Source of the DNA: Moorella humiferrea | Lineage (GTDB): Bacteria > Bacillota > DSM-521 > Neomoorellales > Neomoorellaceae | DNA length: 64,000 nt | Direction: 5' to 3' | Assembly (NCBI RefSeq): GCF_039233145.1 | Contig: NZ_CP136419.1 | Span: forward strand, 594,001-658,000 | Shown: one piece after another, positions 44,449-59,434 of the stretch | Position numbering within the stretch: the stretch's first letter is position 1 | Layout of the letters: each line of letters starts with the position of its first letter | Translations under genes and position numbers: made by a program | Notes under the pieces: model-generated | What the model saw: the letters and a program-made list of their open reading frames with translations, nothing else | Told to the model about the DNA's origin: nothing | Databases searched by the model: none

Positions 44449-44756
44449 TATAACTTAATAAAAGCATCAGTGAAAAGCAAATAAAAAGGCCAGAAAAAAT
44501 AATAATTGAAAGATAATAAGGCCATCAGAAACAGAATAAAAAAGACTTTTTTCGACTACTTATTCCAATATCTTTAGAAAGTATTTCTCTAATATTTTTT
44601 ACTTTGCAGCAGGAATCTCCGGTTTTATAGAGAATTATTATGACATAAAACATTGGTAAAGGGGAAAAAAGCTATTTAAAGAATAAAATACGGCTTTCAT
44701 GCCAATTATTTTCTTGATTACTTAATAAAGCCGATGCAAAAAGTATGGGGTATAAG
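44449..44756. other. AT-rich non-coding region upstream of the ROK regulator
   Basis: About 300 bases have clearly lower GC content than their surroundings and no supported gene. ACTTAATAAA occurs near both ends. It is the likely control region of the carbohydrate cluster, but I cannot point to a single convincing promoter. Confidence 0.5.
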
Positions 44757-46013
44757 ATGAATACAAAGCGAGGACCGGCAGATCTAAAACTCTTACAGGA
44801 AATGAATCGGGCGCAGGTACTAGAAACTATCCGCGCTTATGGGCCCATTGCCCGGGTAGACATTGCCCGCAAAACGCAATTGAGCCCCACTACCGTTGCC
44901 ACCCTGGTAAACGATCTTATTGCCGAGGGCTGGGTGAGAAGTGCGGGGGAGGGCGAATCCCGCGGCGGCCGTAAACCGACTCTTCTGGAATTCAACGCTA
45001 AGGCGGGCTATATTATTGCAGTTGATGTTACCGATACTTTGCTTACTGTAGCCCGCACCGACTTGAATGCACGGGAATTGGAAGAAGAACGTTCCGTACC
45101 TCATAGATTTACCGGCCACGCCCTGGCGGAACTGATCGGCGAAACGGTTGGAACTATTATCGATAGTATGAAGGCCAGGAAATTAAACATCGCTGGAATT
45201 GGCATATCTACCCCCGGCCTGGTGGACGCCGATACCGGTATAGTACGCTATTCCCTGAAACTTAATTGGATGGACTTACCTTTGGGGTCTATGCTAAAGA
45301 AGCGCTTTGATTTAACGGTATATGTGGAGAACGATACCAATGCCGCGGCCCTGGGCGAGAAATGGTTCGGAGCAGGGCGCCCCTTTGAAAACATGGTTTA
45401 TGTGACGGTAGGCAGCGGGGTAGGGGCTGGATTGATCCTCGGTGGGCGGATTTTTCGCGGTATAACCGGCAGTGCCGGTGAATTAGGCCATATGAGCATC
45501 GATAAAGGCGGAGAAAGGTGCGAATGTGGCAATATAGGTTGTCTGGAGAATCTGGTCGCCTGGCCGGCCATCTGGGCGCGGGTAACCAAAGCGATGAAGA
45601 GGGGGGTGCCAACGGTGATTACCGAGTTGGTCGACAACATCGACCAGGTGACCCCGGAGATCCTGAATAAAGCAGCATGGGCCAGCGATCAACTGGCGGT
45701 CAACGCCCTGACAGAAGCCGGGGTAAGTCTGGGGATCGGCCTAGCCAACCTTGTTAACCTTTTAAACCCTGAGGCTATTATCCTGGGAGGGGAACTAATC
45801 GGCAAAGACAGCTTTATCCTCCAGCATGTCCAGAAAACTATGGCCACCCACGGTCTGCGGGTGCCGGGTGCCGCAGTCCGCTTGCTTCCCCATCAACTGG
45901 GCGAAAAGGCGCGTTTGTACGGCGTTGCAGGAATTGTGCTTCACAACCTCCTTGCGACTCGTTTCTGGTCGTCAGGCCTTGACACCAGTGCCGAACCTGT
46001 ATTTCCTCAGTAA
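44757..46013 (+). CDS. ROK-family transcriptional regulator (NagC/XylR-like)
   Basis: This 418-residue protein has an N-terminal winged helix (IARVDIARKTQLSPTTVATLVNDL) followed by a ROK domain. The domain has VENDTNAAALGE, GSGVGAGLILGGRIF and the zinc motif C-x-C-G-x2-G-C-x-E in CECGNIGCLE. Such proteins repress sugar genes and are released by a sugar or sugar phosphate. It heads a cluster that ends with a ROK kinase and NagA, so an amino-sugar effector is likely. ATG 44757 has GGGG upstream; ATG 44745 is the alternative. Confidence 0.88.
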   Translation: MNTKRGPADLKLLQEMNRAQVLETIRAYGPIARVDIARKTQLSPTTVATLVNDLIAEGWVRSAGEGESRGGRKPTLLEFNAKAGYIIAVDVTDTLLTVARTDLNARELEEERSVPHRFTGHALAELIGETVGTIIDSMKARKLNIAGIGISTPGLVDADTGIVRYSLKLNWMDLPLGSMLKKRFDLTVYVENDTNAAALGEKWFGAGRPFENMVYVTVGSGVGAGLILGGRIFRGITGSAGELGHMSIDKGGERCECGNIGCLENLVAWPAIWARVTKAMKRGVPTVITELVDNIDQVTPEILNKAAWASDQLAVNALTEAGVSLGIGLANLVNLLNPEAIILGGELIGKDSFILQHVQKTMATHGLRVPGAAVRLLPHQLGEKARLYGVAGIVLHNLLATRFWSSGLDTSAEPVFPQ

Positions 46014-46112: not shown

Positions 46113-48230
46113 ATGAATAATTTTCCTAACCTATTTAAACCTATTCGTATTGGCAATTTGGAGTTACCCAACCGCATAGTTCATGTGCCTACCGACATCA
46201 GTTCTTCCCATGCCGATGGCTCGGTGAGCGAGCGGGATATCATTCATCACGCGGAAATCGCCAAGGGGGGTACGGGTTTCATTATCGTCGGCGCCACCAG
46301 CCCGGATGGTAAAACCGGCCGGCCGACGGTTACTTCCCTGGTGGCCGACGGCGATAATTACATACCCGGTCTGGCCCGCTTGGCCGAAGCCATGCATCGA
46401 TATGGAGCCAAATGCGCCGTACAGCTACAGCATCCCGGCCGTCAGGCGGCCATTCCCCGCTATAATACCATGTCTACCAACGATATGGTCATCAAAGTTC
46501 CCTGGTCGGCCGGGCATGAGGTAGTGTATGCCAACGCCGAGGAAAAGGGTAAAGAAGCAAGGGCCATGACGGTAGAAGAAGTGCTTGATATGATTGAACT
46601 TTTCTCCGAGGCAGCCTGGCGTGTGCAGCAGGCCGGCTTCGACGCTGTAGAACTCCACGCCGCCCACGGTTACCTGCTGGCCCAGTTCATGAGCCCTTAC
46701 ACCAACCGCCGCAACGATCGTTTCGGCGGATCCCTGGAGAACCGGATGCGCTTCCCCCTGGCTATAATCGACCAGATCCACAAAAAGTGCGGTCGTGATT
46801 TCCCCGTCTTGGTCCGTTTCTCTGTAGATGAGTGGATTCCCGGTGGGCGCGACCTTGAAGAGAGTAAAATAGTGGCCCGCATGTTTGAGGAAGCAGGAGT
46901 CGCCGCCTTGGACTTGAGCCAGTGCATAACCGAAACCCCCGGCGCCGGCTTTGACCCCATGTATTACCAGCAAGGTTGGACCATGTACGCTTCCGAGGCT
47001 ATCAAAAAGGTCGTCAGCATACCGGTGATCAACAGCCATACTTTACGCGATCCCGAATACTGTGAGCAAATCCTGGCTGAAGGCAAAACCGACCTGGTCG
47101 GCCTTTCTCGCCAGCTCCTTGCCGATCCTTACTGGCCGGTTAAGGCTAAATTAGGTAAAGTTCGTGAAATACGGAAATGCATTTCCTGCCTGGTGGGTTG
47201 CTGGCAGGAATCCATGCTGGCCAAGAAAGAAATCCGTTGCGCTATCAACCCCGCGGTGGGCGATGCTCGTTATGCCCGCATGCAAAAAGCCAAACAGACT
47301 ATGAACATTGCCGTTGTGGGTGGCGGCCCGGCCGGAATGGAGGCAGCGCGGGTGGCTACTATTCGCGGCCATAAAGTGACTATTTTCGAAAAGACCGGTG
47401 AGCTTGGCGGGGCCATTCTGGGCTGCTGCCTGGTACCGGGGAAGGAAAAAATGAAGTGGTACGCCGACTGGATTCGCTACCAGATCAAATCCCTAGGGGT
47501 GGAAGTTCGCTATCGAACCCAGCCGACCGTCGATGATCTGCGCGCCTACGACGTCATCGTCAACGCCACCGGTGCCAGTTCCTATCTTCCCGACCTGCCC
47601 AGGGCAAATGGCAGCAATGTCGTCCGGTTCGAGGAAGTAATGGCCTGCCCGAAGCGGACCTGCGAGTACAATCCTGGCGACCGGCAGATGGCCCGTGTCG
47701 GTGAGCGGGTAATCCTGTGGGGTGACCACTTCCAGGCCGTCGATACGGCCCAGTTCCTGGCTTCCATCGGCAAGCAGGTAACGATTATCACGCCGAACAA
47801 AGAACTGGGATCCACCATTGAACCCGTGCACATGTATGTGGTACGCAAGCGCTTCAACCAAACCGACGCCGAAGCATTAACCTCTAAACCTTACCGTTAC
47901 CCAGTTAAGGTGATTACCAGCGCCACCCTCCTGGAAATACGCGAGGATGCAGTCGTCATTATGGATCGAGAATTTAACCGCACCATCATACCCGCCGATA
48001 CAGTAGTCATTTGCCAGGTAAAACCAAATGACGCTCTATTCCACGAGCTTCTGGCCGCCGGCCTCAAGGTGGTCAACGTAGGCGACGCCGTCCGTCCTCG
48101 CAATTTAAAGGCAGCCGTTTCCGAAGGCGCCAATTTCGGGCTTATGGTCGACGGCGATACATTATTCAACCCCAACGGCGCCTTGATGGACGATATTCCC
48201 CTGGACGTCCGGCTGGAGCTCAGCCGTTAG
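46113..48230 (+). CDS. Old-yellow-enzyme-type NADH:flavin oxidoreductase with 4Fe-4S and FAD domains
   Basis: This 705-residue protein has the 2,4-dienoyl-CoA reductase layout. An N-terminal FMN TIM barrel carries AAHGYLLAQFMSPYTNRR and GGSLENRMRF. A 4Fe-4S site is formed by Cys356-x2-Cys359-x3-Cys363-x12-Cys376. A C-terminal FAD/NAD(P) domain starts VVGGGPAGMEAARV. Relatives reduce activated C=C bonds or demethylate amines. In this sugar cluster it may reduce an unsaturated keto-sugar intermediate, which is inference. GGGAGAGG lies before the ATG. Confidence 0.88.
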   Translation: MNNFPNLFKPIRIGNLELPNRIVHVPTDISSSHADGSVSERDIIHHAEIAKGGTGFIIVGATSPDGKTGRPTVTSLVADGDNYIPGLARLAEAMHRYGAKCAVQLQHPGRQAAIPRYNTMSTNDMVIKVPWSAGHEVVYANAEEKGKEARAMTVEEVLDMIELFSEAAWRVQQAGFDAVELHAAHGYLLAQFMSPYTNRRNDRFGGSLENRMRFPLAIIDQIHKKCGRDFPVLVRFSVDEWIPGGRDLEESKIVARMFEEAGVAALDLSQCITETPGAGFDPMYYQQGWTMYASEAIKKVVSIPVINSHTLRDPEYCEQILAEGKTDLVGLSRQLLADPYWPVKAKLGKVREIRKCISCLVGCWQESMLAKKEIRCAINPAVGDARYARMQKAKQTMNIAVVGGGPAGMEAARVATIRGHKVTIFEKTGELGGAILGCCLVPGKEKMKWYADWIRYQIKSLGVEVRYRTQPTVDDLRAYDVIVNATGASSYLPDLPRANGSNVVRFEEVMACPKRTCEYNPGDRQMARVGERVILWGDHFQAVDTAQFLASIGKQVTIITPNKELGSTIEPVHMYVVRKRFNQTDAEALTSKPYRYPVKVITSATLLEIREDAVVIMDREFNRTIIPADTVVICQVKPNDALFHELLAAGLKVVNVGDAVRPRNLKAAVSEGANFGLMVDGDTLFNPNGALMDDIPLDVRLELSR

Positions 48231-48377: not shown

Positions 48378-49541
48378 ATGTTTGGCAAATATAGTAAGAA
48401 AGTCGGATTTAGCCGGGGTGTCATTTTCATTCTGGTGCTAGTCCTGGTGGCCTCCCTTTCCCTGGCCGGATGCGGCGGCAGCAAAGGTTCAGCCACGGAT
48501 GCCGGTAAATCCGGCCAGTCCGGCCAGGCGGGACAAACAACAAAAAAATCAGGCTTCAATATCGCCCTGCTTGACGGGACCAACGCCAACGCCTGGCGCA
48601 TCCAGATGGAACAGAATATGCAGCAAGTGGCCGACAGGTTTAAATCTCAAGGGATAATCAGCAACTACTCCGTCTATGTAGCTAACAACGATGCTACCAC
48701 CCAGGCCCAGCAAATGGATCAGCTGATCAATTCCGGCGTAGATGCCATCCTTATAAACCCGGTATCGGCTACGGCCCTGGCCCCGGTTATCGACAAAGCA
48801 GTAAGCAAAGGGATCCTTGTCATGGCCATAGATCAGCATATCAACCATCCCAAGGTTATTAGCGTAACCAATGACCAGTATGAATGGGCCCGCATCCAGG
48901 CCGAATGGCTGGCCAAGCAGCTGAACGGCAAGGGCGACATCCTGCAGTTCGACGCCATGGCCGGCGCCCCGGCCAATGAAGTCAGGCATCAGGCTTTCGC
49001 CGATGTTCTGGCCAAATACCCTGGTATCAAGGTCTTGAAACAGGTCAATATGGACTGGGATGAGGGCAAGGCCAAGCAGCTGATGACGAGCCTGCTTTCA
49101 ACATATCCCAAGTTTGACGGCATTTTATGCCAGGACGGGGCCGCGGTGGGCATAATCAACGCCCTCCAGGAAGCCAACCACCCGCTGCCCAAGGCTATAA
49201 CCAGTGACGAGTGGATCGCTTACCTGCGCCTGTGGTATGACATCAACCAGAAGAACCCCAATAATCCCTTGAACGCCATAATCGTGGAGAATCCTCCCGG
49301 TATCGGTGCCGATGGTTTGATGATTGCCGTCAATCTGCTCCAAGGTAAAAAACTCAAAGACGGCGTTCTGACCTCCGATCCCATGGATAAAGAGAATAAG
49401 AACGCCATTATGATCAAGCCTACCGTGATCATCACCAACGATAACCTTAAGGAATGGTACGAGAAGACGAAGGATAAGCCTGACACTTATTATATCGATA
49501 GCGTTTTGCCGCAAGAAGAAATCGATAAATTGTTCCAGTAG
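48378..49541 (+). CDS. Sugar ABC transporter substrate-binding lipoprotein (RbsB type)
   Basis: This 387-residue lipoprotein has a hydrophobic signal segment ending in lipobox LAGC with Cys32 as the lipidated residue, then a Gly/Ser-rich linker. The periplasmic-binding type-1 fold follows: FNIALLDGTNANAWRIQMEQ, GVDAILINPVSATALAPVI and GILVMAIDQHI. The fold binds monosaccharides or derivatives such as ribose, inositol or autoinducer-2. The gene starts a complete RbsBAC-type importer. AAGGAGGGAGG precedes the ATG. Confidence 0.92.
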   Translation: MFGKYSKKVGFSRGVIFILVLVLVASLSLAGCGGSKGSATDAGKSGQSGQAGQTTKKSGFNIALLDGTNANAWRIQMEQNMQQVADRFKSQGIISNYSVYVANNDATTQAQQMDQLINSGVDAILINPVSATALAPVIDKAVSKGILVMAIDQHINHPKVISVTNDQYEWARIQAEWLAKQLNGKGDILQFDAMAGAPANEVRHQAFADVLAKYPGIKVLKQVNMDWDEGKAKQLMTSLLSTYPKFDGILCQDGAAVGIINALQEANHPLPKAITSDEWIAYLRLWYDINQKNPNNPLNAIIVENPPGIGADGLMIAVNLLQGKKLKDGVLTSDPMDKENKNAIMIKPTVIITNDNLKEWYEKTKDKPDTYYIDSVLPQEEIDKLFQ

Positions 49542-49552
49542 GGGTTGAGTCC

Positions 49553-51067
49553 TTGTTACAAGTTCAGCATATCAGCAAGCATTTCGGCGGAGTAACCGCC
49601 CTGAAAGATGCATCCCTGAGCCTGGCGCCCGGAGAAATCCGGGCGCTGCTCGGGGCCAATGGTTCAGGAAAAAGCACCCTGGTCAAAGTCCTGGGCGGAC
49701 TGGTGGCACCGGACAGCGGTACAATCCTCCTGGACGGCAGGCCCCTGGTAATCAATTCTCCTTGGGATGCCCGCCGCCATGGCATCGCCGTCGCCTACCA
49801 GGATTTGAGCCTTGTACCCCGCCTTTCCGTAGCCGAAAATATTCTCCTCGGCCGGGAGCCCTGCCGGCGTGCAGGTTTTGTAGATACCAGGAAGGCGCAG
49901 GCACAGGCGGAGGAATTACTGGCCCGCCTGCGGGTTGATGCCAGCCCTGACGCCCTGGCCGGCGACCTGGAACCGGCGGCCCAAAGCCTGGTAGAAGTGG
50001 CCAAAGCCCTGGCCTGGGATCCCCGCATTCTTATCCTCGATGAAGTAACGGCCTCTCTACATCATGATCAGGTACAGCATCTATTCAGCCTGCTCCGGGA
50101 AATGAGCGAGAAGGGGTTAGCCATTCTTTTCGTCTCGCACCGTTTTGATGAAGTCTTCTCCTTATGCCAGACAGCCATGATCCTCCGTGGCGGGGAAAGT
50201 GTTGCTTCCGTGCAGCTGGACCAGGTAGATGAGGCAGATGTGGTCTATTACATGACCGGTACTCGACCGGAAAAAAGCCGTGTTGTAACTGCCAGAGAGG
50301 AAAAGGAAACCCGGCGGGAGGTAATCCTTGCTGTTTCCAATCTTCAAGTCCCACCGCGGGTGCGGGGTGTCACCCTCACGGCCCGGGCCGGCGAAATTAT
50401 CGGCCTGGCCGGGCTGCAGGGACAGGGCCAGGCAGAATTCCTGCGGGCCATATACGGCCAGATCCCCTTCAGCGATGGGCGCGTGGAATATAACGGCGCC
50501 TCCGTAGCCTTTACCTCCCCGCGGGAAGCAGTACGCCAGGGCATTGGCTTTATTTCAGGTGATCGGGAACGGGATGGTATCCTCCCTGTGCGTTCCGTTA
50601 CCGAGAACCTGTTCCTGGCGCGGCTGGCTAAAAACAATCCGGGCACTATCTTAAATCCCAACTATTTACAGGATGAAGCCGGCCGGCAGATTGAGCAATT
50701 GGGCATTGTCGCCGGCAGCACGGCCCACCCGGCCAGCAGCCTCAGCGGCGGCAACCAACAGAAGTTAATCATCGGCAGGTGGCTGGCCGTTCAGCCGCGT
50801 CTCCTTTTACTCGACGATCCTACCAAAGGTGTCGACGTCAACGCCCGCCGGGAGATCCATGACCTGCTGCGGCAAATGGCCGCCTCTGGGACGGCGGTCC
50901 TTATCGCTTCCAGTGATAATGAAGAGCTCCTGGCCATCGCCGAGCGTATTTATGTCTTTTACGAGGGTGAAATAGTTGCTATCCTCCAGGGAAGCGAAAA
51001 AACGGAAGAAGCCCTGGTAGCGGCGATGCTCGGCATGAAACAGACCCGGCCTGAGGAGGGGACTTAA
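49553..51067 (+). CDS. Sugar ABC transporter ATPase (RbsA type, two NBDs)
   Basis: This 504-residue protein contains two ATPase halves, as in RbsA and MglA. The first has GANGSGKST and ILDEVTAS; its signature region is degenerate (LEPAAQSLVEVAKAL). The second has a degenerate Walker A (AGLQGQGQAEF), the signature LSGGNQQKLIIGRWL and LLLDDPTKGVD. This asymmetry is normal for the family. The start is TTG at 49553. The permease gene follows directly. Confidence 0.94.
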   Translation: MLQVQHISKHFGGVTALKDASLSLAPGEIRALLGANGSGKSTLVKVLGGLVAPDSGTILLDGRPLVINSPWDARRHGIAVAYQDLSLVPRLSVAENILLGREPCRRAGFVDTRKAQAQAEELLARLRVDASPDALAGDLEPAAQSLVEVAKALAWDPRILILDEVTASLHHDQVQHLFSLLREMSEKGLAILFVSHRFDEVFSLCQTAMILRGGESVASVQLDQVDEADVVYYMTGTRPEKSRVVTAREEKETRREVILAVSNLQVPPRVRGVTLTARAGEIIGLAGLQGQGQAEFLRAIYGQIPFSDGRVEYNGASVAFTSPREAVRQGIGFISGDRERDGILPVRSVTENLFLARLAKNNPGTILNPNYLQDEAGRQIEQLGIVAGSTAHPASSLSGGNQQKLIIGRWLAVQPRLLLLDDPTKGVDVNARREIHDLLRQMAASGTAVLIASSDNEELLAIAERIYVFYEGEIVAILQGSEKTEEALVAAMLGMKQTRPEEGT

Positions 51068-52099
51068 ATGATACGGCTGTGGCGACGATTACGCTTATCC
51101 CCGGCGGCACCTGGCTATCTACTTTTGCTCTTAGGCATTATAGTTAATATCCTGGTCCAGGGGCCCGATTTTTTCACAAGCTACAATTTTAATTCTCTCC
51201 TGGCAGTAAACGCGCCCCTGGTGCTGGCGGCCATCGCCCAGACCGTTGTAGTATTGACCGGGGGTATCGATCTTTCCATTGGCAGCAATATGACTTTGGT
51301 TAATACTGTGGCTATTGCCCTGACCAACCAGGGGCACTGGCCGGTGGGACTGAGCTGGGCCGTTGCCTTGGCGGCCGCCACCCTGGTAGGGACGGGAAAC
51401 GGCCTGATGGTGGCCTATTTGCGCATACCGCCCCTCCTGGCCACTTTTGCATCTATGTCCGTGGTCGGCGGTCTTGCCCTGTGGATATGGCCTAAACCGG
51501 GTGGGATGGTTCCCCGGGAGATTTACACTACCTACGGCGCCGCCATCATGGGGATCCCTGTAGCAGGCTGGATTATCATTGCCGTAGCACTACTTTGGCT
51601 GTTGATCTCCCGCCGGCGTGTCGGCATTTACCTTCGCGCCGTCGGCGGACGTGAGCGTAGCGCCTATGCTTCAGGAATCAACACAGCTGCGGTAAAGTTT
51701 TTCGCTTATACCTTCTGCGGGTTCATTACCGGTGTAGCCGGTCTATGCCTGACGGCTTTAACCGCGTCTGGAGATCCCAAGATAGGCCAGATGTTTGGCC
51801 TCAACTCCGTTGCTGCTGTAATTCTGGGCGGCAGCAGCCTGGCAGGAGGATGGGGTAGTATCGGTGGTTCTATAGCCGGAGCCCTTTTCCTGGGGTTAAT
51901 AAATAACATCGTCTTTTTCCTTTTCCGCAACTATGTTAGCCATGTCCAGAGTCTTACAAGCGTAGCCTCATTTTACCAGCAGCTTCTGGCCAATCTCATT
52001 GTGATTTTAGGCCTGGCCAGTGCAGCGTTGACGCAGCGTGGCGGGGCCCTTGGCGGCTTGGGTCGGCGCCGCCGGGGAGGGAGGACCCAGCATGTCTAA
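51068..52099 (+). CDS. Sugar ABC transporter permease (RbsC type), first
   Basis: This 343-residue protein has about 8-10 hydrophobic helices and the RbsC motif VLTGGIDLSIGSNMTLVN, plus AAVILGGSSLAGGWGSIGGSIAGAL-like residues in the last third. It is one of two non-identical permeases that likely form a heterodimer. It overlaps the second permease by eight bases and has a basic Arg/Gly-rich C-terminus. Confidence 0.92.
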   Translation: MIRLWRRLRLSPAAPGYLLLLLGIIVNILVQGPDFFTSYNFNSLLAVNAPLVLAAIAQTVVVLTGGIDLSIGSNMTLVNTVAIALTNQGHWPVGLSWAVALAAATLVGTGNGLMVAYLRIPPLLATFASMSVVGGLALWIWPKPGGMVPREIYTTYGAAIMGIPVAGWIIIAVALLWLLISRRRVGIYLRAVGGRERSAYASGINTAAVKFFAYTFCGFITGVAGLCLTALTASGDPKIGQMFGLNSVAAVILGGSSLAGGWGSIGGSIAGALFLGLINNIVFFLFRNYVSHVQSLTSVASFYQQLLANLIVILGLASAALTQRGGALGGLGRRRRGGRTQHV

Positions 52100-53051
52100 A
52101 ATCAACCTCAATTGGCGGCACAACCAGATTCTTATGGCCGGGCTCATCGCCGTCGCCCTGTTTATCGGCGGCGGCCTGATCAACACCAGTTTCTTATCGC
52201 CGGCCAATATTGGCAGCATCCTGGCCATGGCCGTCTTGCTGGGGTTCGCCGCCGCCGGCCAGACCCTGGTGGTCATCGCCGGTGGGGAAGGAATCGACCT
52301 TTCTGTAGGGGCAGTCATGTCCCTGGGTGCGGTATTGGCCGCCCAGACTATGGCTGGCCAAAATAGCAATATCCTCCCGGCCCTGCTGCTGGTTATCCTA
52401 TCAGGGGCGACTATCGGATTGTTCAACGCTGCCGGCATCCTCTATGCCCGGGTGCCTCCCCTGGTAATGACCATGGCCATGGCCAACGTTGTGACCACCG
52501 TCCAGCTGATTTATACCCACGGTTCACCGGTGGGTATGCCGGCGCCCATCATTGCTTTTATCGGCTCGCGCCGCTTATTTCCCTTCCTGCCCTGGCTGGC
52601 GGTGCTGGGCATTATAGTGTTAATCCTGATGCAGTTTATCCTGCGCCGGACCGTGTACGGGCAGCAGCTCTATGCCATCGGCAGCAACTACAACGCCGCT
52701 TATCTGGCCGGGGTGCGGGCCGACGCGGTCAAGGGTATTGCCTATATCCTGAGCGGGATTTTGAGTAGCCTGGCCGGCTTCTGGCTTATTGCTTACAACA
52801 ACTTTGTCTTTGTCAACATGGGCGCCGCCTATGTACTGCCCTCGGTGGCAGCGGTAGTTATCGGCGGTACCTCTCTGGCCGGGGGTGAAGGTTCCTATAC
52901 CGGTACCCTGCTCGGTTCGGTGATCCTTACAGCCCTGGCCAATCTCCTGGTGGTGCTGCACACTGATGAAGCCGGCCGTCAAGTCATCAACGGTCTGGTC
53001 CTGATCCTGCTCCTCGCCCTTTATACCCGGCAACCAGCCATCCGGCAGTGA
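52092..53051 (+). CDS. Sugar ABC transporter permease (RbsC type), second
   Basis: This 319-residue permease carries VVIAGGEGIDLSVGAVMSLGA and AVVIGGTSLAGGEGSYTG, the same RbsC signatures as its neighbour but with divergent sequence. ATG 52092 is chosen because GGGAGGA lies upstream. Paired unlike permeases also occur in the LsrCD and inositol-type importers. Confidence 0.92.
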   Translation: MSKINLNWRHNQILMAGLIAVALFIGGGLINTSFLSPANIGSILAMAVLLGFAAAGQTLVVIAGGEGIDLSVGAVMSLGAVLAAQTMAGQNSNILPALLLVILSGATIGLFNAAGILYARVPPLVMTMAMANVVTTVQLIYTHGSPVGMPAPIIAFIGSRRLFPFLPWLAVLGIIVLILMQFILRRTVYGQQLYAIGSNYNAAYLAGVRADAVKGIAYILSGILSSLAGFWLIAYNNFVFVNMGAAYVLPSVAAVVIGGTSLAGGEGSYTGTLLGSVILTALANLLVVLHTDEAGRQVINGLVLILLLALYTRQPAIRQ

Positions 53052-54100: not shown

Positions 54101-54150
54101 TGCCACCACCGGTCATTAATCTAACTTCCGTTGCAGGAAGGAGAATAATA

Positions 54151-55143
54151 GTGACTTTACGCATTGGCCTTATCGGCTGCGGGGCCGCCGGCCAGGCCCA
54201 CGCCGCCGCCTACCGGGAAATTGAGGGAGTGGAGCTCCGGGCCGTAGCTGATATTGATGCTGCTGTCGCTGCCAGGTTGGCGGCCGCAACCAGCTGCGAA
54301 GCTATGCCCTTGGAGGAACTGCTTGACGCTGATCTCGACATAATTGATATAGCCACTCCGACCTCTAACCATGCTGACCTTGTGCAAGAGGCTGCCCGCC
54401 GCGGCAAGGACGTATTTTGCGAGACCCCCCTGGCTCGCACCATGGACCAGGCGCAGGCGGCCGTGAACGCCTGCCGGGAGGCGGGCGTCCGCCTCATCCC
54501 CTTGCACCTCAACGCCTTTATGCCACCCCTGCGCCGCGCCGCGGCCATCCTGGCCGGCGGGAGCCTCGGACGGGCCGGGGTGGTACGGATTACCCGGCGC
54601 CGGCCCGGCATACCTGCCAGCGCCGGCGATTGGCGCCGCAGCCTGAAGGAAAGCGGCGGCGTCATCCTGGACCTCCTCGCCCAGGACATTGCTTTCCTGA
54701 TCGGTTGTTGTGGCCGGGTGCAGCGGGTTTACGCCGCTTCCACCGCCTACCGGGAAATACTGGCCGGGGAATATGCCCTGGTTTCCCTGCGGATGGAAAA
54801 TGGTATTATTGCCCACCTGGATGGAAACTGGCTTCCCCGTGACCATGGTGGTGACGAGCTAGAGATTGCTGCCAGCAACGGCCTTATAGCATATTCCGAA
54901 GAGAATACAGCGCCCTTAAGGTTTACCACCGCTGATGGCGTGGCGGGACGTCATGGTCTAATAAGCCCGGTGGAAGAAGATATGTACGTTGCCGGGTTGA
55001 AGGAAGCCGTAGATTGCTTGTCAGGTAAACCCACACCCCTGGCCGATATAGAGATAGCCCTCCATACTATGGAAGTCGCCCTGGCAGCCCTGAAGTCGGC
55101 GATCACCGGACAGGTTTTTACTTTAGCGCAGTCGAGGAGATGA
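54151..55143 (+). CDS. Gfo/Idh/MocA family protein 2 with substituted catalytic residues
   Basis: This 330-residue paralogue keeps the Rossmann motif GLIGCGAAGQAHAAAY. The family EKP motif is Glu91-Thr92-Pro93, so the conserved Lys is lost. The usual His of the D-x3-HD-x-D segment is Gln178 (DLLAQDIA). It may be a non-catalytic partner, an enzyme with altered chemistry, or a gene losing function; the frame is intact and codon use looks normal. The start is GTG at 54151 after AGGAAGGAG, and there is no long gap to its neighbours. Confidence 0.85.
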   Translation: MTLRIGLIGCGAAGQAHAAAYREIEGVELRAVADIDAAVAARLAAATSCEAMPLEELLDADLDIIDIATPTSNHADLVQEAARRGKDVFCETPLARTMDQAQAAVNACREAGVRLIPLHLNAFMPPLRRAAAILAGGSLGRAGVVRITRRRPGIPASAGDWRRSLKESGGVILDLLAQDIAFLIGCCGRVQRVYAASTAYREILAGEYALVSLRMENGIIAHLDGNWLPRDHGGDELEIAASNGLIAYSEENTAPLRFTTADGVAGRHGLISPVEEDMYVAGLKEAVDCLSGKPTPLADIEIALHTMEVALAALKSAITGQVFTLAQSRR

Positions 55144-55147
55144 AGGG

Positions 55148-56128
55148 ATGAAAATAGGGATTTTAAGTTTCGCCCATATGCATGCTTACAGCTACGCCGG
55201 CGCCCTTACTCGCCTACCCGGGGTGGAATTTGCCGGCTTGGCGGACGACGACGCCAGCCGGGGCCGCGCCACCGCCGCGCAGTTTGGCACGCGTTACTTT
55301 CCTACGATCGATGCCCTCCTGGAAACAGATATCGACGGAGTGATCATCTGCTCCGCCAATGCCGAACATGCCCCCATGGCCCTGGCTGCCGCTTCCCATG
55401 GTAAGCATATCCTGTGCGAAAAGCCCATTGCAACCACCATTGAAGATGCCGCCCGCATGATCGCTGCGTGCCAGGAAAACAATGTCCAGCTGGGCGTGGC
55501 CTTTCCCTGCCGCTTTCACCCGGCGGCGCGCCGATTACGCCAGGAAATCCAGGCCGGCAAGCTGGGACGGGTGATCGCCATTCGCGCCACCAATCATGGC
55601 TCGCTGCCGCCAGGCTGGTTTTTAGACCGGGAAAAGGCCGGCGGCGGCGCTGTCATGGACCATACTGTCCACGTTGTTGATCTCTTACGGTGGTTCTTAG
55701 GCCAGGAAGTGATCCGCGTCTATGCCGAGGCCGGGACCCTCCTTTATGATATCAACGTAGAAGATTGTGGTCTTCTATCCATGGAACTGAGCGGTGGCGT
55801 CTTCGTTACCCTGGACACCAGTTGGTCACGGCCACCGGGCTTCCCCACCTGGGGTGACGTGACCATGGAAATCATCGGCACCGCCGGTACTGCTTACCTG
55901 GACCTGTTTGCCCAGAACCTGGCGGTCTACGGCCCAGGAGAGTTGACTACCCGTTACGAAAACTGGGGTAGCGACGCCGATTATATCATGGTGCGGGAAT
56001 TTGTATCCTGCATTGCCGGCAACCGTCGGTTCCCGGTTTCCGGCCATGACGGCTTGAAAGCCCTGGAAGTGGCCCTAGCCGCCTACCGCGCCGCGGAAAC
56101 CAATGCGCCAGTAGCGGTGGGAAACTAA
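55148..56128 (+). CDS. Gfo/Idh/MocA oxidoreductase 3
   Basis: This 326-residue protein has Glu91-Lys92-Pro93 and Asp171-His172-x2-His175 in the C-terminal half, so catalysis is plausible. The N-terminal dinucleotide loop is unusual: GILSFAHMHAYSYAGAL replaces GxGxxG. This form is seen in one subset of the family. It starts four bases after gene 2 and ends one base before the ROK kinase, so these genes form one tight operon. Confidence 0.88.
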   Translation: MKIGILSFAHMHAYSYAGALTRLPGVEFAGLADDDASRGRATAAQFGTRYFPTIDALLETDIDGVIICSANAEHAPMALAAASHGKHILCEKPIATTIEDAARMIAACQENNVQLGVAFPCRFHPAARRLRQEIQAGKLGRVIAIRATNHGSLPPGWFLDREKAGGGAVMDHTVHVVDLLRWFLGQEVIRVYAEAGTLLYDINVEDCGLLSMELSGGVFVTLDTSWSRPPGFPTWGDVTMEIIGTAGTAYLDLFAQNLAVYGPGELTTRYENWGSDADYIMVREFVSCIAGNRRFPVSGHDGLKALEVALAAYRAAETNAPVAVGN

Positions 56129-56129
56129 C

Positions 56130-57134
56130 ATGGAGAAAGAACGGAGCTACGTCTTAGGAGTAGATTTGGGTGGAACCAAAATAGCTTTCGGGCTGGTCGA
56201 CCAGGCAGGGCGGGTTATCAACGAAATGATCGTACCTACTCGTCCTGACGACGGCGCCGCGTGCGTTATTGAGCGCATCGTGACCGGGTTACGCCTGGTG
56301 GGAGCGGAGGCCGGGAAAGGGGGAGGAATAAAAGGGGTGGGTATGGCCCTCCCCGGCGTTTTCGACAGTGACGGCGGCAGGGTGATCCTCTCTGCCAATT
56401 TGAATTGGCGCAATGTCCCAGTTGGCGAAATTCTGACCAGGGAGTTGAACCTCCCCCTTTTCTTAGAGAACGACGCCCGTGCCGCGGCCTGGGGCGAGAA
56501 ATGCTTCGGCCATGGGCGCAATGTGGAAAATTTGCTTTATATCGCTATTGGTACGGGCATCGGCGGCGGCCTCATCCTGGGCGGGCGGATCTACCGCGGT
56601 CACCACGGCAACGCCGGCGAGATCGGCCATATGGTAGTTAACCCGGCAGGCCCCCGTTGTGGATGCGGCAATTACGGCTGCTGGGAAGCGCTGGCCTCGG
56701 GCAAGGCTATCGCCGGCCGGGCCGCCGCCCTCCTCGCCGCCGGCCGGCCTTCGATCTTGGGGGAGATTATAAACCGTAACGAAGAACTCACCGCCTTGCA
56801 CGTCGCCTCCGCCGCCGCGGCCGGCGATAAGCTGGCGCAGGAGGTTATGGAAGAAGCGGCCAATTATATCGGTTTGGGCATCGCCTCATTGGTTACCATC
56901 TTCGACCCGGAACTAGTGGTTCTGGGCGGAGGCGTCAGCCGGACCGGCAGCTTGCTGTTACCCACGGTAACCCGGGTGGTGCGCCAGCGCGCCCTGCCGC
57001 CGGCCGCTAGTAGCGTGCAGGTGGTTTTGTCTACATGGCCGGAAATGGCGGGAGTAGTAGGCGCTGCCGCCATAGCTTTTACCCGCCTCGGACTGCTGGA
57101 CGAAGGGGGCAGGCAAACATGTCGCGCATGTTAG
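56130..57134 (+). CDS. ROK-family sugar kinase
   Basis: This 334-residue kinase has the phosphate motif GVDLGGTKIAFG and the catalytic-type Asp in LENDARAAAWGE. GTGIGGGLILGGRIY and the zinc motif CGCGNYGCWE are also present. It lacks a helix-turn-helix, so it is an enzyme and not a repressor. ROK kinases include glucokinase, GlcNAc kinase and ManNAc kinase; the NagA and SIS genes downstream favour an N-acetylhexosamine. It overlaps the SIS gene by 16 bases. Confidence 0.9.
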   Translation: MEKERSYVLGVDLGGTKIAFGLVDQAGRVINEMIVPTRPDDGAACVIERIVTGLRLVGAEAGKGGGIKGVGMALPGVFDSDGGRVILSANLNWRNVPVGEILTRELNLPLFLENDARAAAWGEKCFGHGRNVENLLYIAIGTGIGGGLILGGRIYRGHHGNAGEIGHMVVNPAGPRCGCGNYGCWEALASGKAIAGRAAALLAAGRPSILGEIINRNEELTALHVASAAAAGDKLAQEVMEEAANYIGLGIASLVTIFDPELVVLGGGVSRTGSLLLPTVTRVVRQRALPPAASSVQVVLSTWPEMAGVVGAAAIAFTRLGLLDEGGRQTCRAC

Positions 57135-58153
57135 AGGAGATTATGGAACAGCCTGGTGTGTTGCGCCGACTGCTCCAGGAAGAAAAAGAAAACGTCCGCG
57201 CCATAGCTAACCTCATCAAGGAACGGCAGTGCCGTTATGCGGTTATCGCCGCCCGCGGCACTTCCGACCATGCCGCCACCTTTGCCAAATACGCCCTGGA
57301 AGTTTACACCGGCCTGCCGGTGGCCCTGGCCGCACCTTCGGTCATCACCCTTTACGGCGGCTGCTTGCAATTACAGGACGCCCTGGTAATCGGCATCTCC
57401 CAGTCGGGCGAGGCGGCCGATGTGGCCGAGATCTTACACCAGGGCCGGACGAGCGGGGCGGTGGTAGTCACCATCACCAACGAAGCGGAATCTACGCTGG
57501 CTAGGCAGGCAGATCACCTGCTCCTCTGTCGCGCCGGTAAAGAGACGGCACTGGCAGCGACCAAGACGTATACCAGCGAGCTGGCCCTGCTCGGCATGTT
57601 GGTGGCGGCCCTGTCCGGGCGTGACGACTTGATTACCGCCCTAGCAGGGGTGACGGAAGCCGTGGAGGCTTGCCTGGCCCTGGCGCCGCGCATCAACCAG
57701 GTCGTAGAGCGGTACGCGTATATGGATGAATGTGTGGTCCTGGGCCGGGGGTTGAATTACCCCACCGCCCTGGAGGCGGCCCTGAAGCTGCAGGAAACAT
57801 GCTATGTGCAGGCCCAGGGTTTTTCCGCCGCCGACTTTTTACACGGCCCCATTGCCATTATATCCCATGGTTATCCGGCTATCATTGTAGCGCCCTCCGG
57901 CAGAAGTTATATGCAGATGCAGGAAATGGCTGGCCGGCTTCTGGCCCGCGGAGCGGAACTCATCGTCCTCTCCGACCGCCGGGAAATCCTGGACCAGGCC
58001 CGGACAGGGCTGGAACTCCCCGCTGTGGACGAGTTCATCTCGCCGTTTACCGGCATTGTGGCCATGCAGCTTTTCTCCTGTTTCCTTGCCGAAGCAAAAG
58101 GCTTAGATCCCGATCGCCCGCGGGGACTGCGTAAGGTAACGGTGACCCGTTAA
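57119..58153 (+). CDS. SIS-domain aminosugar-phosphate isomerase/deaminase (NagB-II or GlmS-like)
   Basis: This 344-residue protein matches the isomerase half of GlmS, with two SIS domains. Motifs are AARGTSDHAATFAKY, IGISQSGEAADV, ALAATKTYTSELALL and ARGLNYPTALEAALKLQET. It lacks the glutaminase domain, as in NagB-II deaminases that convert glucosamine-6-phosphate to fructose-6-phosphate and ammonia. Its position between a ROK kinase and NagA supports that role. ATG 57119 lies within the end of the kinase gene. Confidence 0.87.
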   Translation: MSRMLEEIMEQPGVLRRLLQEEKENVRAIANLIKERQCRYAVIAARGTSDHAATFAKYALEVYTGLPVALAAPSVITLYGGCLQLQDALVIGISQSGEAADVAEILHQGRTSGAVVVTITNEAESTLARQADHLLLCRAGKETALAATKTYTSELALLGMLVAALSGRDDLITALAGVTEAVEACLALAPRINQVVERYAYMDECVVLGRGLNYPTALEAALKLQETCYVQAQGFSAADFLHGPIAIISHGYPAIIVAPSGRSYMQMQEMAGRLLARGAELIVLSDRREILDQARTGLELPAVDEFISPFTGIVAMQLFSCFLAEAKGLDPDRPRGLRKVTVTR

Positions 58154-58174
58154 GGAAGGAAGGGGGCCTAACCT

Positions 58175-59434
58175 TTGCCGATCAGTTCGACGCCGCCCGA
58201 TGTTATAACACTGCAGGGCGGCATCCTTGTCCTGCCGGATCGATTGATTACCGGCGGTATTTTAGAGATTGGTGGCGGTAAAATCATCGCCCTGGGCGGC
58301 CCGGGGTCCGGCGGAGAAAGCACGGACCGGGAACTGAGGGGTACAATCATAGACGTATCCGGCCGCTATGTTTGCCCGGGATTTATCGACCTGCATGTTC
58401 ACGGTGGCGGGGTCCACGGCTTCGACTGGCAGCAACCGTGGAGTGAGTGGGAGCAGGTGGCCCGCGTTCACGCCGCCCACGGAGTAACCTCCCTCCTGGC
58501 CACGGTTCCGTTACCGCATGATGTACACTTGCTCTACGAGTTCCGTAGAGAAGTAGCCGGAAAAGAAATGACGGGGAGCACCATTTTAGGCCTGCATCTG
58601 GAGGGGCCGTACTTAAGCCCGGTACGTCGCGGCTGCTGGCCGCAATCCTCCCTGCGACTGCCCCGGCCGGATGATTGCCGAGCCCTCCTGCAAGCCGCAG
58701 GTCCGAGTCTAAAAGTCATCACCCTGGCCCCGGAGCTGCCGGGCGCTATGGAATGTATCTCGCTCCTGAAGGCCGCAGGTGTGGTGGTGGCCATGGGTCA
58801 TACGGATGCCACCTATGAACAGGCCGTTCAGGCGGCCCGCGCCGGCGTGCGGAGGGTCACCCATCTTTTCAACGCCATGCGGGGGCTACACCACCGGGAA
58901 CCTGGTACCGCTGGGGCGGCCATGGATCTGCCAGGGGTAATGGCGGAGATAATCTGCGACGGCGTCCACGTCCACCCCGCCGCCATGCGTTTGGCCCTGC
59001 GGGCTAAAGGTGTAGATGGCCTCAACCTGGTCACCGACGCTAGTCCCCTGGCCGGGGCCCCGGATACGACGTTGGAAGTACCGTTCGGTCAATTTCCAGT
59101 AAAGGTTGTCAACGGTGCCTGCCGCGCGCCCGACGGCTCCCTGGCCGGCAGCCTCCTAACCTTGGAGCAAGCCGTGGCCAACGCTACCCGCTTTCTGGAA
59201 GTTCCGCTATGGCAAGCGGTGCGCATGGCCAGCCTCAATCCCGCCCGTTCCCTGGGCATCGACGACTGCAAGGGTTCCCTGGAAACCGGCAAAGATGCGG
59301 ATATTACTGTGCTGGATAACGACTTCGGTGTTGAAGCCACCTTCATCGGCGGCCGCCTGGTATATGTCGACCCGGCAGCCGCCGGGCGATATAAACCGCT
59401 AAACCCGCCTCACCACCAGTCCCAGCAGAATTAA
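58175..59434 (+). CDS. nagA: N-acetylglucosamine-6-phosphate deacetylase
   Basis: This 419-residue amidohydrolase has the metal motif GFIDLHVHGGG. It also has GLHLEGPYLSP (metal-binding Glu), MGHTDATYEQA, HLFNAMRGLHHREPG, and LVTDASPLAG with the catalytic Asp. NagA removes acetate from GlcNAc-6-phosphate to give GlcN-6-phosphate. With the kinase and SIS protein it forms a complete salvage route and would also release acetate. TTG 58175 follows GGAAGGAAGGGGG. It ends the cluster and overlaps a convergent small gene by 36 bases. Confidence 0.93.
   Translation: MPISSTPPDVITLQGGILVLPDRLITGGILEIGGGKIIALGGPGSGGESTDRELRGTIIDVSGRYVCPGFIDLHVHGGGVHGFDWQQPWSEWEQVARVHAAHGVTSLLATVPLPHDVHLLYEFRREVAGKEMTGSTILGLHLEGPYLSPVRRGCWPQSSLRLPRPDDCRALLQAAGPSLKVITLAPELPGAMECISLLKAAGVVVAMGHTDATYEQAVQAARAGVRRVTHLFNAMRGLHHREPGTAGAAMDLPGVMAEIICDGVHVHPAAMRLALRAKGVDGLNLVTDASPLAGAPDTTLEVPFGQFPVKVVNGACRAPDGSLAGSLLTLEQAVANATRFLEVPLWQAVRMASLNPARSLGIDDCKGSLETGKDADITVLDNDFGVEATFIGGRLVYVDPAAAGRYKPLNPPHHQSQQN

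Follow-up and report, generated by a model that had tools for sequence, protein, structure and literature searches.

A maintained pseudoenzyme of the Gfo/Idh/MocA fold in Moorella humiferrea, most likely a non-catalytic partner of the paralogous enzyme encoded beside it

The window analysed here, a 64,000-nt stretch of the Moorella humiferrea genome, carries a cluster of sugar-related genes on the forward strand, within which three paralogues of the Gfo/Idh/MocA family (here P1, P2 and P3) lie side by side. The head of the cluster is a ROK-family regulator-like protein (44745..46013), assigned from its similarity to the ROK kinase and its N-terminal sequence. A ribose/allose-type ABC sugar uptake system with a binding protein, an ATPase and two permeases (48378..53051) is followed by P1 (53048..54100), a canonical Gfo/Idh/MocA dehydrogenase, then by P2 (54151..55143) and P3 (55148..56128), and finally by a ROK-family sugar kinase, an SIS/NagB-II-like deaminase and NagA, a GlcNAc-6-P deacetylase (56130..59434). 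Because the operon combines NagA, the NagB-II-like deaminase, the ROK kinase and ABC sugar uptake with the ROK-type regulator, its substrate would be a glycoside or amino-sugar derivative; the pathway is one of sugar catabolism, with a probable route via GlcNAc-6-phosphate. The start of the sugar operon (46113-48230) also encodes a putative old-yellow-enzyme/dienoyl-CoA-reductase-like protein of 705 aa, assigned from its sequence, which is conserved at both orthologous loci described below with 92-93% identity.

P2 is an open reading frame of 330 aa with a GTG start at 54151. This start is supported by the ribosome-binding site GGAAGGAG (54136..54143, forward strand), and two other species of the genus start the gene at the same position, behind a similar ribosome-binding site. 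The protein contains the Rossmann domain PF01408 (84.1 bits against a Pfam cut-off of 24) and the C-terminal alpha/beta domain PF22725/PF02894 (56.1/30.4 bits against cut-offs of 27/22.9), and its structure model has a pLDDT of 87.1. The nucleotide-binding loop GCGAAG (residues 9-14, 54175..54192) is intact and invariant in the genus, and D34, P70-T71-H74 and D174 are also retained. At 54421..54429, where active relatives have EKP, P2 reads E91-T92-P93 (C90-E91-T92-P93 in context), and at 54670..54684, where they have DxxxH, it reads D174-L-L-A-Q178. The catalytic Lys and His are absent, with T92 and Q178 in all three species, and the Asp is kept. The corresponding motifs are VEKP and DLQIH in P1 and CEKP and DHTVH in P3. 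A preliminary description of this DNA had placed Thr92 and Gln178 at these positions in an intact frame with a good Rossmann motif, and had credited both flanking paralogues with the normal Lys and His; all of this holds, with K92/H175 in P3 and, in P1, the description's K98/H184 when counted from a later start or K107/H193 from the longest one.

The changes extend beyond these two residues. Relative to positions conserved in its wider lineage (lineage X, below), P2 also has R122A, Y162R, D181A and W185G; overall it keeps 13 of the 19 conserved sheet positions and most of those in the nucleotide site, with K92, R122, H178, D181 and W185 lost. Each of K, D and H is required in a characterised Gfo/Idh/MocA member, in which the Ala mutants are inactive, and the His of DxxxH is conserved in the inositol-dehydrogenase branch (PMC5969746). 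Since all three are needed in that relative, P2 is very unlikely to perform the usual reaction of the family. P2 retains an NAD-type nucleotide site and, from these kept motifs, probably binds NAD(H), either structurally or as a sensor.

Within the genus, P2 is present in 3 of 11 genomes examined. The two orthologues (G009, 85% identity; G010, 76%) show the same operon order, and in the window as in both of them P2 directly precedes P3 in the same orientation, with 4-16 nt between the genes. T92, D174 and Q178 are kept in both, and the E91 and T92 codons differ synonymously among the orthologues. Pairwise dN/dS for P2 is 0.15-0.23 by NG86 and YN00, somewhat higher than for P1 (0.11-0.18) and P3 (0.07-0.16) yet far below 1. 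The nucleotide loop and pocket segments of P2 are invariant at 48 of 52 positions, compared with 191 of 278 elsewhere (within genus; Fisher p 0.0003), and the pocket of the active paralogue P3 is conserved to the same degree (48/52).

With T92 and Q178 fixed in three species and dN/dS at 0.15-0.23, P2 is therefore a maintained pseudoenzyme, reflecting neither decay nor sequencing error. The preliminary description had held that orthologues with normal Lys and His would point to recent decay or error. The orthologues divide on this point: the distant ones (34-40% identity) do have the normal residues, which would favour decay, as would a related species of the genus (G001) that has only a broken remnant of P3, whereas the close ones share T92 and Q178 under purifying selection. 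Because of the latter, and given identical substitutions in three species with no stops or frameshifts, we rejected recent decay or error, which we regard as highly improbable. The remnant in G001 (L100 9858-10362) is made up of 92% and 81% pieces in different frames, and no P1 or P2 counterpart was found beside it.

Outside the genus, the best P2 homologues among 398 Bacillota genomes (32-40% identity) carry both EKP and DxxxH. Their immediate downstream neighbour is a P3 orthologue (P3 identity about 50-56%), and we refer to this lineage, the P2 homologues directly upstream of P3 orthologues, as X. P2 nests in the X clade, with support of 98/91 in a 63-protein tree and 81/81 in another tree, making it an X orthologue without the catalytic Lys and His. 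P1 was rejected as an X orthologue, as it falls in a separate clade of the 63-protein tree. The P2 stem is long (1.6-1.8 changes per column) and that of P3 is ordinary; likewise, the P2-to-X distance is 0.64 against 0.47 among other X, the equivalent values for P3 being 0.474 and 0.458.

X is closely tied to P3. All 20 genomes with an X-like match also have P3, which occurs in 25 of the 398 genomes (hypergeometric p about 2e-29). X lies directly upstream of P3 wherever the contig allows, often with a 4-nt overlap, and the X and P3 distances outside the genus are correlated (r = 0.91). An apparent X-P3 fusion in G205 (632-aa frame) was discarded as merely an extended open frame over adjacent genes. 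In a contig scan with P2 alone, all homologues found were distant, with a bias towards CETP proteins; scans around Shouchella xiaoxiensis (G406) and its order yielded many more X-P3 pairs, and scans of the whole phylum with G406 and G405 as centres added almost no loci to those already found. Other X-P3 pairs adjoin sugar uptake, ROK-type or sugar-isomerase-like genes. In one family (L024, L061, L063, L067), the pair is located between CinA-like and DAK2/FakA-like genes, not sugar transport.

We scored the state of the partner at 74 P3 loci whose upstream gene could be read, counting near-copies. X has EKP and DxxxH at 47 of these loci. It is a full-length pseudoenzyme at four, namely P2 in its three species and L156, which has CQSP and lacks the His. 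Six loci (L113, L114, L115, L127, L182, L188) have a Rossmann-degenerate X with neither motif, and the remaining 17 have a short X, mostly some 170-250 aa long, whose one clearly recognisable part is the C-terminal beta-sheet region (for example L163 2463-3167, L170 803-1504 and L180 752-1501). The short forms match the catalytic-X model around positions 180-300 with E-values of 1e-5 to 1e-12 for most, reversed-sequence decoys reaching 0.12 at best; weaker matches are L187 (0.05) and L168/L193 and L185 (4e-4). Compared as a profile by hhalign, the short X forms align with X at 97.3% probability (E 2.4e-11) and with P3 at 1%, which led us to reject the idea that they are P3-like. Region 180-300 of the X model corresponds to C-terminal strands 190-249 of the P2 model (54718..54897), the best-retained part of reduced X proteins and the proposed interface with P3. 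Similarly, the degenerate L113 keeps 14 of 19 X-conserved sheet positions but 9 of 33 in the nucleotide and catalytic parts (p 0.0016).

The short X genes are not frameshifted full-length genes, since the gaps or overlaps to the upstream open reading frame are too small to hide a Rossmann domain: this frame ends 3-12 nt before short X in 9 of 16 loci examined and overlaps it by 4-8 nt in three more, and the gap is 73-119 nt at L170, L174, L183 and L186. They are under purifying selection, with dN/dS of about 0.3-0.4. On a quick P3 tree of 67 orthologues with SH-aLRT support only, loss of X catalysis requires five changes, three of them forced by starred branches, and the short forms make up one clade. 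On the P3 tree, a clade of this genus plus the L113 group is rejected (AU p 1.4e-5). For the X proteins alone, the AU test does not reject a grouping of P2 with the L113-type proteins (p 0.25), as expected with long branches, and so the independence of these two losses rests on the P3 tree. There are at least five separate catalytic losses in X, with the catalytic residues of P3 kept throughout.

P3 itself keeps K92, D171 and H175, and every P3 examined has the EKP and DxxVH motifs, whatever the state of its partner. In place of GxGxxG it has SFAHMHAYSY (55166-55195); SFAHxHA or a close variant substitutes for GxGxxG in the P3 orthologues and is nearly invariant across Bacillota. Modelled, P3 shows the full fold of the family (pLDDT 88), with 2glx as its best match (Z 38.7). 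No nucleotide site can be recognised in the reduced forms of X, so P3, even with its SFAHxHA loop, probably takes care of its own cofactor.

Together, these findings suggest that P2, a maintained pseudoenzyme, most likely serves as a non-catalytic partner subunit of the P3 enzyme, a possibility that the preliminary description had raised and that the repeated catalytic losses in P3-coupled X now support. The reading builds on direct observations: P2 is orthologous to X, has a fixed loss and is under purifying selection, X consistently adjoins P3 and has lost catalysis at least five times, and the sheet region is preferentially retained. The C-terminal sheet is the dimerisation face of proteins with the Gfo/Idh/MocA fold. 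X would at first have been an ordinary NAD-dependent dehydrogenase, inherited together with P3 and translationally coupled to it. Selection would then have preserved its C-terminal beta-sheet, allowing X and P3 to form a heteromer through their sheets, in which catalysis by X is dispensable and P3 would supply the active site (K92, D171, H175) and the unusual cofactor loop. In this genus, catalysis would have been lost, but the nucleotide-binding residues are kept. Since the sheet domain and the position before P3 are what is best kept across X, we infer a physical X-P3 hetero-oligomer, with P3 as the active subunit, as the simplest reading of the sequences.

Several observations can be read differently. 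Two proteins of one pathway could also be translationally coupled and co-inherited, and P2 is carried by only three species. Moreover, a partner with a purely structural role would have no need of the strong within-genus conservation seen in the P2 pocket, and P2 may therefore have a ligand to bind or another reaction to catalyse. The preliminary description had named a changed reaction and a sensor alongside a partner, and both are kept here as lesser readings. An enzyme with a changed reaction, using NAD and Asp174 in a pocket remodelled by T92, Q178, A122, A181 and G185, would account for the conserved pocket segments and for the retained loop, D34, P70-T71-H74 and D174, and a long stem followed by slow change is also what a new function could produce. 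We nevertheless consider it unlikely, given the loss of further X-conserved residues at positions 122, 162, 181 and 185 and the inactivity of the K, D and H mutants in the characterised member (PMC5969746). In addition, the parallel losses beside P3 proceed to complete destruction of the nucleotide and active sites, so the retained function shared by X is not catalysis.

The same reduced forms bear on whether P2 is instead a ligand or NAD sensor, or a Gal80-like regulator, and not a structural subunit of P3. Yeast Gal80 is a non-enzymatic member of the same fold, the nucleotide site of P2 is intact, its non-catalytic pocket is conserved, and a ROK-type gene heads its operon. However, P2 is tightly coupled to P3 and not to a regulator, and reduced X proteins without a nucleotide site persist at the same position, making such a role improbable. 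If the partner reading is extended to all of X, the picture is of a widespread two-subunit Gfo/Idh/MocA system in Bacillota, in which a catalytic P3 with the non-canonical SFAHxHA loop has an obligate ex-enzyme partner that has repeatedly and independently been dismantled down to its dimerisation sheet, with P2 as an NAD-holding intermediate; we put this forward tentatively, as a possibility somewhat short of even. Were it true, a common sugar-dehydrogenase family, described as homo-oligomers in the structural work consulted, would have an obligate heteromeric branch, living genomes would display several stages from catalytic subunit through pseudoenzyme to reduced binding domain, and the origin of pseudoenzyme partners would have a directly testable system.

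P2 resembles known members of the family over its whole chain, matching scyllo-inositol dehydrogenase (5yab), 1,5-anhydrofructose reductase (2glx) and levoglucosan dehydrogenase (6a3f) with Z-scores of 33.9-35.5. It shares with them both Pfam domains, the Asp and the nucleotide loop but, unlike these enzymes with their K-D-H triad, lacks K and H. For such enzymes, the reported assemblies are homo-dimers or homo-tetramers (PMC5969746). The BT_2158/BT_2159-type glycoside 3-dehydrogenases (NCBIfam NF058561, NF058563) also belong to Gfo/Idh/MocA and carry the annotation sugar 3-dehydrogenase; NF058563 is matched by a P3-family protein with an E-value of 3.5e-22, well below that model's cut-off, and the P3/X subfamily differs from theirs. 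We know of no pseudoenzyme partner for these dehydrogenases. As in pseudoenzyme-enzyme paralogue pairs generally, the inactive paralogue is encoded beside the active one and kept with it; unlike them, X adds a stepwise reduction to one domain. We found no heteromeric or pseudoenzyme Gfo/Idh/MocA pairs and no stepwise reduction described in the open-access literature, where absence is weak evidence. Family models match pseudoenzymes of this kind as dehydrogenases, a warning for annotation, and the most reduced X forms tested score above cut-off in neither Pfam nor NCBIfam.

Two other members of the fold, Gal80 and biliverdin reductase, are non-canonical in that the usual sugar-dehydrogenase residues are altered, and a biliverdin reductase (5b3v) is among the fold matches of P2 (Z 33.5). 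To our knowledge, neither shares an operon with a catalytic paralogue to which it is coupled. Non-catalytic members of the Gfo/Idh/MocA family are already known in principle (Gal80); a coupled, stepwise-reduced partner we did not find described in the open-access literature. The preliminary description's view that a pseudoenzyme or changed reaction would be unusual for the family needs qualifying on the same grounds, and also because three full-length family members (L047, L053, L055) seem to lack both Lys and His; they came from a search with a CET-biased pattern. The same search gave a separate family group (L043, L044, L046, L050, L054, L056), which has CETP instead of CEKP and mostly keeps the His.
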